Virus record (IMG/VR): IMGVR_UViG_3300007734_000560
Location: 1 to 30,575 of that record
Strand: one strand, 5' to 3'
From: a virus
Length of the DNA: 30,575 nucleotides
The notes beneath the pieces were generated by a model, which saw nothing but the letters and a program-made list of their open reading frames with translations, was not told the origin of the DNA and did no database searches. Made by a program: the position numbers and the translations under genes. Below, piece after piece: positions 364-30,575 of this stretch. Position 1 is the stretch's first letter. Every line of letters starts with the position of its first letter.

Positions 364-411
364 GGTGCGCGCCGTAAAACAACCGAGAAAGCAGAAAGAC
401 GGCGCGCCACC
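364..411 (-). other. Inverted repeat (12-bp stem) in the terL-portal gap, unit A'
   Basis: The left arm 364-375 (GGTGCGCGCCGT) pairs with the right arm 399-411 (ACGGCGCGCCACC), giving 12 pairs with one bulged base at 408 and a 23-nt loop. It begins about 11 nt after the terL stop. No T-tract follows on the minus strand, so it does not look like an intrinsic terminator. Equivalent inverted repeats of different sequence sit in the same gap in the other two units. Confidence 0.8.
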
Positions 412-421
412 CGTCAACACA

Positions 422-3807: not shown

Positions 3808-4063
3808 TGATTGCAGCTCTAATCACTGATGCGTTAAAACGGTTTTGCTCTCCGCCAATGGTCATGTGTGCGTCATACATCATTGTTAATTCGTCAAGCA
3901 AATTGCTGTGGTCTGGTGGCTCTGGTCGAGCAACATGGTTTGGTCGTACAATGTCGTCAATCATTTCGCCAAACACTTTGCCAAGTTTGTCGCTGTAGTT
4001 ATCGGGATACATTCGTCGGGTCTCCTCTGTAATGCCCGTTTCGGGATACTGTGCGTCAGTCAT
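3788..4063 (-). CDS. Hypothetical protein, 91 aa
   Basis: ATG at 4063 overlaps the stop of the SLT lysin gene (ATGA). The protein is acidic and soluble, beginning MTDAQYPETG and containing the segment RPNHVARPEPPDHSNLLDEL followed by two probable helices ending VIRAAINVIRAL. I recognise no family. It lies between the lysis cassette and the DNA-binding genes. Its regular coding pattern and coupling support it being real. Confidence 0.65.
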   Translation of the reverse strand: MTDAQYPETGITEETRRMYPDNYSDKLGKVFGEMIDDIVRPNHVARPEPPDHSNLLDELTMMYDAHMTIGGEQNRFNASVIRAAINVIRAL

Positions 4064-4545
4064 GAGCCGGGCACAGCCCATGCTGACCAGCCAACTTTAT
4101 ACCAGAGGTGTAACGCGGCACGGATATTTACATCTGGATAAAACAAGTCGTCAAGTTTAGTTATGTAACCCTCACTAATAAGCCATGACTTGTGCGTGCC
4201 GTTGACTTGTAGTAATCCTCGACTGCCGCCGTTGCTGTCTCGACTGTTAAACGCCAACGGGTTACACCGTGACTCTCTAAACATGACGCGCGCCAACATT
4301 GGTGCTTCGCTTGCAGGCCAGCCAGCGGTAATGGCATCAGCAACGTACTGCGCGCATCCTTTAGGCACGGCCGTAGTCGTGGTTGTCGTGGTTGGCAATG
4401 TGGGCACAATGCTCACAAGGGTTGTGGTGCGTTGGCCTACTAGCGCTGGTTGGCTGTCAGACGGCTTACTAGCCCCATAGAGCAACGTAAATGCCGCTAA
4501 GCCAGTAACCAGCCATGCACTTATTTTGATAGCGAAATATGTCAT
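4060..4545 (-). CDS. Membrane-anchored or secreted SLT-type lysozyme-like lysin
   Basis: ATG at 4545 is preceded by GGAG seven bases away and overlaps the previous stop (ATGA). Residues 5-24 form a hydrophobic signal or anchor (AWLVTGLAAFTLLYG). A Thr/Pro linker of the TTTTTTTAVP type follows. The C-terminal domain carries the transglycosylase pattern: catalytic Glu in FRESRCNP, then SRGLLQVN, and the terminal helix with ALHLWYKVGWSAW. It would cleave the glycan strand of peptidoglycan outside the membrane, complementing the M15 peptidase encoded just upstream. It could act in lysis or in local wall opening. Unit B has a comparable exported enzyme. Confidence 0.85.
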   Translation of the reverse strand: MTYFAIKISAWLVTGLAAFTLLYGASKPSDSQPALVGQRTTTLVSIVPTLPTTTTTTTAVPKGCAQYVADAITAGWPASEAPMLARVMFRESRCNPLAFNSRDSNGGSRGLLQVNGTHKSWLISEGYITKLDDLFYPDVNIRAALHLWYKVGWSAWAVPGS

Positions 4546-4721: not shown

Positions 4722-4759
4722 TGCATCTCCCTTATCGCCGGTGTTTCCACCATAGGGCA

Positions 4760-6568: not shown

Positions 6569-7819
6569 TTATCCTAACGCATTAGTTGAGTTGATGATGC
6601 CATAAGTAATGTCATCAAGTATTAAGTCCGACAGAATAACCGTTGGCGATGTCCACAAGCTCATGCGATGACCGGTATTCATGTCAATAACGTGGTCTAT
6701 GCCTTCGACCGTTAAATCTTGTGTAACGGCCGTAGGTGTACCAGACGCAAACGATTTTGTGACCGTGACTACTTGCCCAATTTCTATAGGGGCAAGCGTG
6801 TTTTTTTGAGCATCGGTCAAACTGGCAAACGTGGTTGACACGTTAGTGAAACGGGGTTTTGGTATTGGATACAGCAGGTAACTGGCAAGCGTGGCGGCCT
6901 GTGCGTCGCTTGATAGCAGGCTGTCGGTGATTGCTTCGGTTTGCTTAAAGTATTGGCTAATTGAGTCGGTGTCGCTGGCGTTTTGTAACGTGCCGCCTTC
7001 GATTGTGATGTTGCTGTTGTTAATAACCGATTGCTGGTCAAATTCCACCACAATGTTGTCGTAAGGCGTAGCGGTATTGGTGTCGTTAAAAATGACGGTA
7101 GGCGCGTCAAGGGTTGTGCCAATGCGCGGTTGGGCGGTTAGGACATTGGTGCGGCTGCAAAAAATACGGCCCTGTTCGGCTTGCTGGATGCGGTTTAGGT
7201 AGGCGTTGACGTTTGTGCCGCTAGGGATGCTATAAGCGCCTAGCGTGGCTATAGGGCTGGCTGTAAGAGATTTAGTGCCTGTGTACGCTGCAGCCGTTAA
7301 AACGCTTGTAATGCGCGCTGATGAGGTTTCTACGCTGGTAGCAGTAGCAGGCAAAAACCCTTGTGACAGCACATAAATGTCATCGGCAGCATGTATCTGG
7401 TAACTGGTCAAACCAGCCATTGTGTATTGCTGGTTATATGTCGTGACTCGACCAGTAAACAAATATTCACCGTTACGACTCAACCGTATTTGACGCAACG
7501 GGGCTAAACCCGGTTGCTCTGTCAACTGGTTGTAATACGCGCTAGAAGTATTCAACGGGTCATAGGCGCGGTTTGTGTTTGGCACACTGATACTGACTGA
7601 CATTGTGCCCGGCCCAAACACGTCTAACGGTTTGTGTCTGCCTCGACTAATACCAATGTTTTGCACGACGGGCGTAATGTCCACATAATCTGTGCCGTCG
7701 CCGTCTAACACTGCCGTGCCGTCAAGCGTTGAGTCGTCAAGGTAAAACGCTGACGAGTCGTAACCCGTTGACAGCTCTAGCAGATACGTGCCGCCAGTAA
7801 TGACGGTTGAGCCAGCCAT
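6569..7819 (-). CDS. Minor tail protein (baseplate/Dit-Tal-like), unit A, 416 aa
   Basis: ATG at 7819 shares a base with the tape measure stop (TAATG). The first part (to about residue 125) has DITPVVQNIGISRGRHKPLD and the pattern SVPNTNRAYDPLN, typical of siphovirus distal tail proteins, with GRVTTYNQQY following. The rest is beta-rich and resembles tail-tip hub proteins. Short LDD-containing motifs occur at both ends (FYLDDSTLDG and LILDDITYGI). The unit B homologue has the same layout. It would cap the tail tube and connect to the fibre. Confidence 0.82.
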   Translation of the reverse strand: MAGSTVITGGTYLLELSTGYDSSAFYLDDSTLDGTAVLDGDGTDYVDITPVVQNIGISRGRHKPLDVFGPGTMSVSISVPNTNRAYDPLNTSSAYYNQLTEQPGLAPLRQIRLSRNGEYLFTGRVTTYNQQYTMAGLTSYQIHAADDIYVLSQGFLPATATSVETSSARITSVLTAAAYTGTKSLTASPIATLGAYSIPSGTNVNAYLNRIQQAEQGRIFCSRTNVLTAQPRIGTTLDAPTVIFNDTNTATPYDNIVVEFDQQSVINNSNITIEGGTLQNASDTDSISQYFKQTEAITDSLLSSDAQAATLASYLLYPIPKPRFTNVSTTFASLTDAQKNTLAPIEIGQVVTVTKSFASGTPTAVTQDLTVEGIDHVIDMNTGHRMSLWTSPTVILSDLILDDITYGIINSTNALG

Positions 7820-14402: not shown

Positions 14403-14436
14403 GTTTCTAGTGTGTCACAATCTGCGCGGTTTGTGG

Positions 14437-14498
14437 TGGCATCGAGGCGGTTTGCAGTGCGGTATCCCGACGATAGGCAGGCCAACGCCCCGATGCCA
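14437..14498 (-). other. Inverted repeat in the terL-portal gap, unit A
   Basis: TGGCATCG (14437-14444) pairs with CGATGCCA (14491-14498). After one A-C mismatch, GGCG (14446-14449) pairs with CGCC (14486-14489). The loop is about 36 nt and contains a smaller TATC/GATA pairing. Sequence differs from the hairpins in the equivalent gaps of units A' and B, but place and long-loop form are the same. Confidence 0.68.
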
Positions 14499-14513
14499 AC
14501 ATAAGCGTAGTGC

Positions 14514-15962
14514 CTATACGACTACGAGCATTGGTTTGCCAGATGATGTTGGGCGACTCGTTAACGCTGCTGCCCACACCATGCATCGTGCCAGCTCGAT
14601 AGGTCCGGGCGACCGTTGGCTTGATAGTGCAATGCTGTTTTGTGAGCGAACAGCAACCGCACGGCTGACGTGTTCGGCTAGTTGTGTTGAGCCGTCGTGC
14701 CACAACAGTTTTTCGTTAATCATGTTTTTGACTGACGGCGTAAATTTAAGTATTTCGCCGTAGCCAACGATGATGCGTCGGCGTTCTAGGGATAGCGGCC
14801 AGTGGTTATCTACCGTTGGCGTGATAGCGAATTTGATTGTGGGGTTGGCGCATAGGCGCTCGACGTGGCTTAACATTTCGCTAAATGTGTCTGCCACAAA
14901 CTCAACGGTGGCTACGGTGCGTCGGTCTGGTAGCGCCACGCAACGTACAGCAAAATAGCGTGTGTCATCCAAACTGGTTTCTATGGCTACCGTTCCGCCG
15001 TCTGGCATTTCTCCGTCGTATTCGAGCGCTGGCCATTGACCCGGCTGTATCCATGACTTATCTGACGCAACCCACAAGTTACAACTAGCCCGTAAAAACG
15101 ATGCGCGGTCAGGGTTTTCCGACTCGGCTTGTAACGTGGCGGCCGTCAATGTGATGCCCAATGCAGGGTTGCCATACGCCCACGCCTCTGGGGTCATCGG
15201 GTTTATGTCTGGTGGCGGCGACCATTCGGCAAAATAAAACGCTGCGTTTTTACCTGTGTCAATGGCACGCAAACCCTGTTCACGCCAACGCAACATAGCG
15301 GTGCTGGCCTCTGTACCAGCGGTTGACCACATGCTTAACAACGGTGACACTTGGGCACGTTGAGCCGGCAACAAACCGCCGTCAATCACTTCGCGCGTAA
15401 TATCCCACATCTCATCGGCAACCACCAAACTTGGGCTAGTACCGTGACCCACAGAATTATTGGCGGCACGCACAAGCCAAGTAGAGCCGTCTGGCATTGT
15501 CACTCGATTACGCCCATACGACTTCATCAGTGTTGCGCCAAACCGCTTTTCCAACACTGGCGACAACTCATCAAACAACATCACCGCCAAATCCAAGCGG
15601 TGAGCGGTAGATAACACAGTCTGTTTCTTGCCACGTATCTTTGGCATCTCTGTAAGCCACCAACCAACCAATGCCATAAGAGCTGTTGTCTTACCGCACT
15701 GCCGCGCCGTAGAAACAAGACTGACCCGGTTAACTAACTCAAAATTTGCGTCATAAAGTAACTGACCGTCAAGCGCGGTGTACTGCCAATCCATTAACTC
15801 CACGCCCATGTACTCCCTGCACCATTCCCTAACATTTGGCGCGAATGAACCCACGTGGTCTGGCCTCGAAGTTTCCAATCTTGGCTGTGCGTGGCCAGTT
15901 ACCGCCAGTTGTGGCTGGTTAGGGCTGGTTGGGATAGACAAGACAGGGGTCGGGGGCAACAT
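14514..15962 (-). CDS. Terminase large subunit (unit A), 482 aa
   Basis: The ATPase domain has the Walker A-like STARQCGKT (a Cys replaces the usual Asn), the Walker B segment LVVADEMWD and the coupling motif SMWSTAGTE. The C-terminal nuclease domain contains AIETSLDDTRYF and AITPTVDNHW. It is closely similar to the TerL part of the unit A' fusion (for example KFTP, SSQRSPGPIELARCMVW). An ATG at 15962 exists, but alignment to unit A' shows conserved residues continuing upstream in the HNH frame. The two frames differ by one base within a run of seven A. TerL packages DNA through the portal and cuts the concatemer. Confidence 0.93.
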   Translation of the reverse strand: MLPPTPVLSIPTSPNQPQLAVTGHAQPRLETSRPDHVGSFAPNVREWCREYMGVELMDWQYTALDGQLLYDANFELVNRVSLVSTARQCGKTTALMALVGWWLTEMPKIRGKKQTVLSTAHRLDLAVMLFDELSPVLEKRFGATLMKSYGRNRVTMPDGSTWLVRAANNSVGHGTSPSLVVADEMWDITREVIDGGLLPAQRAQVSPLLSMWSTAGTEASTAMLRWREQGLRAIDTGKNAAFYFAEWSPPPDINPMTPEAWAYGNPALGITLTAATLQAESENPDRASFLRASCNLWVASDKSWIQPGQWPALEYDGEMPDGGTVAIETSLDDTRYFAVRCVALPDRRTVATVEFVADTFSEMLSHVERLCANPTIKFAITPTVDNHWPLSLERRRIIVGYGEILKFTPSVKNMINEKLLWHDGSTQLAEHVSRAVAVRSQNSIALSSQRSPGPIELARCMVWAAALTSRPTSSGKPMLVVV

Positions 15963-18439: not shown

Positions 18440-18472
18440 GGTTCCCTTTCTGACCGTTGTTTTTTCAGGCTA

Positions 18473-24902: not shown

Positions 24903-24929
24903 CTGTTCCCTTTCGATTGCCTTTGTGGG

Positions 24930-28992: not shown

Positions 28993-29057
28993 ACCGGAAT
29001 CATCTATAGACCTTTGTCAAATTACAAGGGCCATGACATAGAGACACGATTTCAATA

Positions 29058-29114
29058 CGCGTGGGGGCCTCAGGGAACCGGCCCACCACAAGCGGACCGA
29101 GAAACCCCCACGCG
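29058..29114 (-). other. Perfect 10-bp inverted repeat in the terL-portal gap, unit B
   Basis: CGCGTGGGGG (29058-29067) pairs perfectly with CCCCCACGCG (29105-29114) around a 37-nt loop. It starts 11 nt after the terL stop. The loop contains TTTCTCGGT on the minus strand, also present in the unit A' loop. There is no T-tract after it, so it is not a standard terminator. Confidence 0.85.
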
Positions 29115-29124
29115 CAGCTACATA

Positions 29125-30575
29125 CTACCGGCTGTATGCAATTGCTGGGCGCTGTGATGTACGGGGCTTTGCGACCAAGGCAGTAGCGAACACCATGCAA
29201 CGTGCAAGCGTGATGGGCCCGTTGGATCGTTGCGACGAAAGCGCATAGCCGCGTTGCGTTGATACGCCCACGGCCCGGTCGACGTGTTCGCGCAGCATTT
29301 CCTCACCGGTATGCACAATTCGTTCCTCAAGGATCAGCTGGCGAATGGTGCCGGTATGCGTCGACAATTCTGAGTACCCCACCTGCACCTTCCGCCTGTG
29401 CAAGTTGTCGGGGGCCAGCTCAAACAGTGATGGCGTGAGTGCGATTCCGGTGCAGCTCTTGGCCCGTTCGTTGATTTCCGCCCAACACTTCGCAAGCGAG
29501 TCGACCACGAAGTCAACGGTTACGCCGATCATTCCGTCCTCCATTGGAACGGCACGGACCCCGCAATACATCGATTCGTCCGGCGATGAGTCCACGGCTA
29601 GCACTCCTCCGGCGGGGACACTTTCGACCTGAAGGGCATCAAATGTGCCGGGCGGAAGCCATGAGGTGGTTGCCGTAATCCAGACGTTGAGACTGGCGCG
29701 CATAAACGCGGCCTTGTCCACCTGATTCACTTCGTCGTCAAGCACTTCGCGTTCAAGCGTGTAGCCCAAGGCGGGATTGGCAAGGTGCCAAAGGTCCGGC
29801 CGGTTCACTGCGTCGACCCCGGGCGGTACGGACCATTCCGCGAAATACAGGTTTGTTTGCCGGTCCTCGTCGATCGCCCGTAGCCCTTCCTCCCGCATCT
29901 GAATCATGGCCCTCGATGACTCCGTGCCGGCGGTCGACCAACATGAGAGCATCGGCGACTTCATCACGCGCTGGGAAGGCAATGCGCCGTTCAGCAGCAC
30001 GTCAGGGCTAATGCCCCAAACCTCGTCGGCGATGATGAAGTGCGGCGAATAGCCGTGGAACCTTGAAGGCGTGGCGGCCTGAATCATCCAGCGCGACCCG
30101 TCAGGCATCACGGCTTCCTGCCTGCCGTAACTCCACCTGCACTTCGCCCCGTGCTTCTTTTCTAGCAGCGGACCTAGCGCCTCAAAGATTTCAGCCGCGA
30201 GGTTCAGCTGGTGCGCGGTGCTGATGATGAGGATTGGTTCCCCGCGGCGCTTCGGCTCATCGAGCAGCGCCCACAAGATCAGGGACTTGATGGCAAGGGT
30301 CTTGCCGTTCTGTCGTGCAACCGATACCAGTGAACGACGCCGGCGGAACTTGCCATCGTCATCAACTTCCAGCTGCCCGCTGAGTGCGCGGACTTGCCAT
30401 GGCATCAGTGTCATGCCCAGCTCGCGCAGCGCGACGGCGGCCACGTCGGGCCCGAAACTCAATCCCCCATATGTGGGCGTTTCCAGTCTCGGTGCAATCT
30501 CATGTGATCCGCCGGCATCTGGTGAGTCCGTTCCGTTTTCGTCTTGTTCAGGTTCGTTCGGGACATACGGAAAGA
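29125..30575 (-). CDS. Terminase large subunit (unit B), 5' end beyond window
   Basis: The frame stays open to the window edge, so the true start is outside; a TTG at 30462 would give 445 aa but cuts off the conserved APRLET segment. The ATPase domain shows SVARQNGKT (Walker A), FIIADEVWG (Walker B) and CWSTAGTESS (coupling). The nuclease domain has AVDSSPDESMYCG. The end, SSQRSNGPITLARCMVF, matches the other two TerLs. It packages and cuts phage DNA. Divergence is much greater from units A and A' than between those two. Confidence 0.92.
   Translation of the reverse strand, partial: FPYVPNEPEQDENGTDSPDAGGSHEIAPRLETPTYGGLSFGPDVAAVALRELGMTLMPWQVRALSGQLEVDDDGKFRRRRSLVSVARQNGKTLAIKSLILWALLDEPKRRGEPILIISTAHQLNLAAEIFEALGPLLEKKHGAKCRWSYGRQEAVMPDGSRWMIQAATPSRFHGYSPHFIIADEVWGISPDVLLNGALPSQRVMKSPMLSCWSTAGTESSRAMIQMREEGLRAIDEDRQTNLYFAEWSVPPGVDAVNRPDLWHLANPALGYTLEREVLDDEVNQVDKAAFMRASLNVWITATTSWLPPGTFDALQVESVPAGGVLAVDSSPDESMYCGVRAVPMEDGMIGVTVDFVVDSLAKCWAEINERAKSCTGIALTPSLFELAPDNLHRRKVQVGYSELSTHTGTIRQLILEERIVHTGEEMLREHVDRAVGVSTQRGYALSSQRSNGPITLARCMVFATALVAKPRTSQRPAIAYSR

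Follow-up and report, generated by a model that had tools for sequence, protein, structure and literature searches.

Between the terL and portal genes of a large group of very small freshwater phages lies a stem-loop that is a real, conserved RNA structure, and the loop shows complementarity to ribosome-binding sites that the phage has at other genes. Loop and sites have changed together across many genomes, so that their pairing, read from sequence comparison, is well supported. We consider it probable that the hairpin is a phage antisense RNA that would control the phage's own tail and second-operon genes through their ribosome-binding sites.

The window analysed, the whole 30575-nt stretch of an IMG/VR virus record, holds parts of three related phage genomes in tandem (units A, B and C; Table 1). 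All major genes of all three units are on the - strand, and the TerL proteins of the other phages in the window are 43-46% identical to that of unit B. A tRNA and tmRNA search of the sequence returned none, and no relatives of the unit C TerL were found among the host genome contigs searched. The three different phages are joined head to tail at the HNH/TerL junction, once near 15960, where the GC content also steps, and once at about 1870; this arrangement probably reflects chimeric assembly at a conserved end, though a genuine mixed concatemer is possible. Many independent contigs of 13.5-15 kb share one end point between HNH and TerL (L273, L276, L290, L294, L297 and L310, with window equivalents at about 15960 and about 1870), and at this shared end the HNH frame is open at the right end and the TerL frame at the left end. 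A cohesive end seems to be placed inside a joined HNH-terL reading frame, in which case terL would become whole only after end joining. A similar case was noted in the Emperor record.

In unit B the first-pass annotation had reported ten perfect pairs shortly after terL, and the inverted-repeat search reproduced them exactly: two arms of 10 nt (29058-29067 and 29105-29114), 100% complementary and 37 nt apart, the nearer one beginning about 11 nt past the terL stop at 29125. The long 37-nt loop described there stands as a spacing of the arms and falls as an unpaired region, as most of it is paired when the sense (-) strand is folded. From 29116 to 29056 this strand pairs almost without interruption into a hairpin of 26 pairs, with a bulge of 6 unpaired nt, UUCCCU. 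The sense fold of the gap reaches -60.4 kcal/mol (z -5.1, with 0/200 dinucleotide shuffles as good) vs z -3.3 for the antisense fold. The same gap of units A and C carries hairpins that differ in sequence from that of unit B and from each other, as had been claimed, with arms of 19 nt at 84% in unit A (14431-14449/14486-14504) and of 9 nt in unit C (367-375/399-407), found by inverted-repeat search, and with sense-fold z values of -2.4 and -3.5, respectively, against dinucleotide shuffles. Reading of the gap sequences agreed with the earlier statement that a terminator T-tract is lacking: none follows the hairpins of A, B or C.

Table 1. Units, hairpins and loop-complementary sites in the window, and the corresponding T1 and T2 sites of related phages.
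Feature	Position	Strand	Sequence	Remarks
Unit B	30575 to about 15960			GC near 0.59
Unit A	about 15960 to 1870			GC near 0.49
Unit C	remainder of window			
Unit B RNA hairpin	29056..29116	-		26 pairs, contains the reported arms; fold and inverted-repeat search
Unit B pairing segment	29072..29079	-	GGUUCCCU	overlaps unpaired bulge; complementary to unit B T2 and T1
Unit B T1	24905..24911	-	AGGGAAC	in ribosome-binding site of tail assembly chaperone gene, ATG 24902
Unit B T2	18440..18447	-	AGGGAACC	directly 5' of ATG 18439, first gene of second operon
Candidate -10	18467..18472	-	TAGCCT	upstream of unit B T2; putative, read from sequence
Unit A hairpin	14431..14504	-		same gap as that of unit B; inverted-repeat search and fold
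Unit A pairing segment	14467..14477	-	CCUAUCGUCGG	
Unit A T2	4733..4741	-	CCGGCGATA	leader of 59-aa gene, start codon 4721
Unit C hairpin	364..412	-	CUUUCUCGG (loop)	T1 and T2 fall outside window
T2 site, C types			CCGAGAAAG	
T2 site, variant L301			CCGGGAAAG	
T2 site, D types			CCGACGAAAGG(CA)	
T2 site, L306			CCGACAGA	
T2 site, L299			CCGACGAG	
T2 site, L296			CCGGCAG	short match
T2 site, A types			CCGACGATA or CCGGCGATAAG	
T2 site, B-type L291			GGGGGAACCGA	
T1 site, L284			ACCGAGAAAG	
T1 site, L301 and L328			CCGGAAAGG	
T1 site, L312			AGGGGACAC	
T1 site, L316			GGGGAGACAC	

TerL searches together with seven cultured records yielded 264 loci, among which 173 terL-portal gaps were distinct. 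In 158 of 166 distinct gaps a strong hairpin began no more than 25 nt from the terL stop, and perfect arms of at least 8 bp occurred in 53% of these 166 vs 4% of dinucleotide shuffles. For 146 of the 158 hairpins the sense strand was more stable than its complement. Within a family of 21 sequences 5 stem pairs have changed on both sides, several stem G-U pairs are invariant, and 99.4% of cells are paired vs 22-53% in slid controls; a second family (11 distinct sequences) has 9 pairs with compensatory change. Compensatory stem changes, invariant G-U pairs and the higher stability of the sense strand indicate that the selected object is the coding-strand RNA. The structured RNA and the compensatory change of its arms that had been suggested from the window are thereby borne out, and covariation and a stem in relatives, whose absence had been named beforehand as the refutation, are both present. 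While the arms vary freely, the loops keep motifs (CUUUCUCGG, CUUAUCGUCGGG, CCUUUCGUCGGG, GGUUCCCCC). None of the Rfam families gave a convincing match at gathering or permissive thresholds and E-values. A stop-codon readthrough element was considered and rejected since the offset of the hairpin from the stop, and hence the frame through it, differs among families. The cultured Arthrobacter phages Atraxa and MooKitty and phage Hadban have no hairpin, their terL-portal spacing being only about 11-12 nt. In the cultured Rhodococcus phage RRH1 (L261) two hairpins, at 2334-2373 and 7575-7614, are exact 40-nt reverse complements of one another, one standing before portal and the other just after the tail gene Orf10, which may be a related arrangement in a culturable phage.

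Each of the 14 C-type contigs tested contains CTTTCTCGG once in the hairpin and once or twice as reverse complement, with one complement always at the same place about 10 kb downstream. Reading of 60 complete or long contigs showed this place, T2, to be the leader sequence ahead of the second operon's first gene, about 9.5-10.5 kb downstream of the hairpin. The gene that follows T2 in C types encodes an SLT transglycosylase-domain protein; A and most D types have a 59-aa gene first and such a protein after it, and the SLT domain was found in the window at 4060-4545. In B types the product of the gene is a small CxxC protein. In each family the T2 leader is complementary to that family's own loop. 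An exact-word prediction, CCGGAAAAG for the CUUUUCCGG loop, failed; the actual T2 site of this loop is CCGGGAAAG, paired through one G-U, and its T1 is CCGGAAAGG. The T2 site of C types, of L295 and of others is itself the loop of a small hairpin, with arms that differ (CCUA/UAGG, CUCGA/UCGAG, GUCAC/GUGAC). A further complement in C types, ATGACCGAGAA, spans the start codon of a gene farther along the second operon, at about +10.9 to +11.2 kb; it was seen in L273, L274, L276, L277, L282 and L283.

Energy scans of duplexes formed by the whole loop gave no information, being dominated by stem bases, and contiguous-run scoring of loop and site was used in their place. Matched loop-leader pairs scored 26.3 at T2 vs 18.0 for mismatched pairs (0/20,000 permutations); such permutation tests, here and at T1, are not fully independent as the families are related, and representatives were used. 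The shuffle p was below 0.05 in 40 of 50 distinct loop-leader pairs, the other 10 being hairpinless genomes, B-type genomes or the short L296 match. Genomes fetched later agree at T2, with 14 contiguous pairs in L381 and 12 in L382. The hairpinless L293, L311 and L367 had no significant complement at T2. Among cultured relatives, PoRanda and KylieMac gave no convincing complement.

A further site, T1, recurs across types about 4.1-4.7 kb downstream of the hairpin, before the tail assembly chaperone gene, so named from its order and size by comparison with annotated relatives. Matched pairs again beat mismatched ones (1/20,000 permutations), and no T1 complement was found in nine hairpinless genomes (Mann-Whitney 3e-5). 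T1 is weak in A-type genomes, and some B-type genomes (L290, L340, L350, L344) have weak sites or sites displaced to a different gene. In B-type genomes the loop complement precedes several genes: in L312 the loop GUGUCCCCU is matched by AGGGGACAC at two places and by GGGGGACAC at one, and in L340 the loop GUUCCCCCU is matched by AGGGGGAAC at two.

Scores of at least 22 were reached in 53% of tests in complement orientation vs 0% in identity orientation. Across the whole set of genomes, loop-complementary 8-mers show a 14.7-fold enrichment within the 20 nt that precede start codons (p 4e-34), with 49 in 31.8 kb of pre-start sequence vs 72 in 688 kb for the rest of the sense strand, where some true sites are counted as elsewhere since the gene calls were simple; the antisense strand has 32 in 720 kb. 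Loop and site have changed together in L301, L299, L306, L298, L312 and L316. Each site is partly Shine-Dalgarno-like, and the parts that covary are CCGAG, CCGAC, AAC, ACAC and GACAC. As regards membership among base-pairing regulatory RNAs, both complementarity to ribosome-binding sites beyond chance and compensatory change of RNA and target were found.

Within the window itself the matches are short. The unit B duplexes are of 8 bp at T2 (shuffle p 0.06 taken alone) and 7 bp at T1 (p 0.15 taken alone), and the unit A T2 duplex is of 9 bp including one G-U (p 0.03). Unit B on its own would not prove the antisense case, which rests on the family evidence. L300, a 97% relative of unit B, carries AGGGAACC and GGGGAACC, and L282, a near relative of unit C, has both T1 and T2 complements. 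Motifs of the form TANGGT/TAGGCT, like the unit B candidate -10, precede T2 in relatives. Partners belong to one 14-kb unit and not to neighbouring units of the record, since the unit A site scores 23 with the unit A loop vs 13 with a C-type loop (cross-comparison with L286 as representative).

Taken together these results suggest how the element may work, most simply as a hairpin loop whose antisense pairing blocks ribosome-binding sites. The hairpin RNA at the 3' end of terL would expose an antisense loop, or the bulge in unit B, able to base-pair at the ribosome-binding sites of two or more further genes of its own phage, T1 within the late operon and T2 at the predicted 5' end of the second-operon mRNA. 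Such pairing would cover the Shine-Dalgarno region and would block ribosome binding; repression as the sign of the effect, its timing, transcription of the hairpin and its release as a small RNA are presumed. No conserved promoter (-10) for a separate small RNA was seen in the terL tail. Once the genome ends are joined, the second operon would read through HNH and terL into the hairpin, so that the RNA could feed back on its own operon and may be the 3' end of a transcript whose 5' end it pairs with. Gene order and the open frames that run off contig ends fit such a T2-HNH-terL-hairpin operon. T1, in the late operon, would require action in trans. One may go further and propose, tentatively, that the 14-kb phage lineage runs a post-transcriptional switch on one trans-acting antisense hairpin holding down tail assembly and second-operon genes, with terL read to its end and joined genome ends needed, and with the loop and the set of ribosome-binding sites re-coded together many times. 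The RNA of the switch would need joined ends because the packaged ends seem to cut the HNH-terL frame.

The portal gene seems, from the gap sequences, to have its own promoter between the hairpin and its start codon (e.g. TGGCATACTTAGCGCATG), and its mRNA would then be leaderless and outside control by the hairpin. In nearly all loci, for example L284 and L340, a conserved -10-like element stops six bases short of the portal start codon. The control of portal synthesis proposed in the first-pass annotation is not supported, given a putative promoter downstream of the hairpin and a loop that complements the ribosome-binding sites of the chaperone and second-operon genes. About 22 nt before the likely portal -35 a motif, TCKTATCTTTA / TCTCTATCTC, occurs with or without a hairpin, in the gaps of B-type and hairpinless loci (e.g. 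L188, L200, L204 and unit B 29040-29052), and is perhaps an activator site. In PoRanda (L267) an inverted repeat containing GACATGTCC lies near gene boundaries at 1098, 2570, 6170, 13351 and 15581 and is perhaps a repressor site.

The same data could be explained by an intramolecular 5'-3' contact only, in which the 3' hairpin pairs with the leader of its own mRNA and controls translation or stability, as in icaR (PMC3868564), the late-operon matches being secondary. T2 and the hairpin would indeed mark the predicted 5' and 3' ends of one operon once the ends are joined, and most C and D types have a longer match at T2 than at T1; T1 and other sites of the late operon, an operon that starts downstream of the hairpin, also covary with the loop, and we regard this explanation as unlikely. 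The hairpin might instead act as an unusual terminator or as a stabiliser of the mRNA 3' end, insulating the terL transcript against the portal promoter, with incidental complementarity; this would suit a strong stem everywhere and its location between the terL stop and the putative portal promoter. It is unlikely as the whole explanation given the lack of a T-tract, the conserved loop motifs and the loop-site covariation, which a terminator leaves unexplained, though such a function could be an additional role of the hairpin. Loop and sites might instead be DNA operators of one regulator in opposite orientation whose specificity has drifted, in line with the closeness of T2 to a predicted promoter and with a portal promoter predicted downstream of the hairpin. 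We rejected this reading as very improbable on account of orientation, every site being in complement and none in identity orientation, and of the mid-operon position of T1; moreover the stem shows RNA-type compensation, and mismatches counted within pairing runs are G-U, which follows from the way the score is built. A packaging RNA acting with terminase and portal, like phi29 pRNA, would suit the location between the two genes; it can practically be dismissed, as the loop is complementary to mRNA ribosome-binding sites, hairpinless relatives have homologous TerL and portal, and no Rfam family matches. The packaging signal suggested in the first-pass annotation finds no support, given the same complementarity to chaperone and second-operon ribosome-binding sites, and its guess of a small RNA working with the motor came close as to the small RNA, with a probable antisense role in place of the motor one.

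Phage antisense RNAs are known one by one. In IS10 the loop of RNA-OUT, a stable hairpin, pairs at the ribosome-binding site in the 5' end of its target mRNA (RNA-IN); RNA-OUT is encoded opposite its target, whereas the RNA and sites described here are kilobases apart on the same strand. The P4 CI RNA is similar in principle to the c4 antisense RNA of phages P1 and P7 (RF01695), which like our hairpin is a structured phage RNA with loops that pair with ribosome-binding-site or leader sites of the same phage. The c4 RNA serves an immunity system, in contrast to the lytic-looking 14-kb freshwater phages studied here, in which a single hairpin after terL, with no Rfam match, has the tail chaperone and second-operon genes as predicted targets; the c4 covariance model gave no match at gathering or permissive thresholds. 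The c4 antisense RNA is listed among known phage RNAs (PMC2864571). OppZ and CarZ are 3'-end operon RNAs that pair with their own transcript to inhibit translation (PMC7398697), but they are bacterial and processed by RNase E, while the present hairpin is phage-borne and has an extra covarying target in another operon. In icaR the Shine-Dalgarno region is paired with a motif from the 3' UTR of that same mRNA, UCCCCUG (PMC3868564); that case is a single bacterial mRNA, and in these phages the motif is displayed on a stable stem and loop and site have changed as pairs on many occasions. The cabRNA of staphylococcal phages, a structured RNA from inside terS/terL that activates a bacterial cyclase (PMC10686824), shares with the hairpin an origin in the terminase gene region, and no cyclase role is suggested here. 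No report of a terL-portal hairpin element was found in the literature searched. The hairpin would work like phage antisense and 3'UTR-derived autoregulatory RNAs but fits no family model.

Our findings suggest that the loops of intergenic phage hairpins be compared with the ribosome-binding sites of the phage that encodes them. In the present case a single RNA-target code is legible in many tens of phage genomes, in which paired changes have occurred repeatedly at positions separated by kilobases. For the smallest tailed phages this makes RNA-based gene timing directly testable and provides many natural compensatory mutants.
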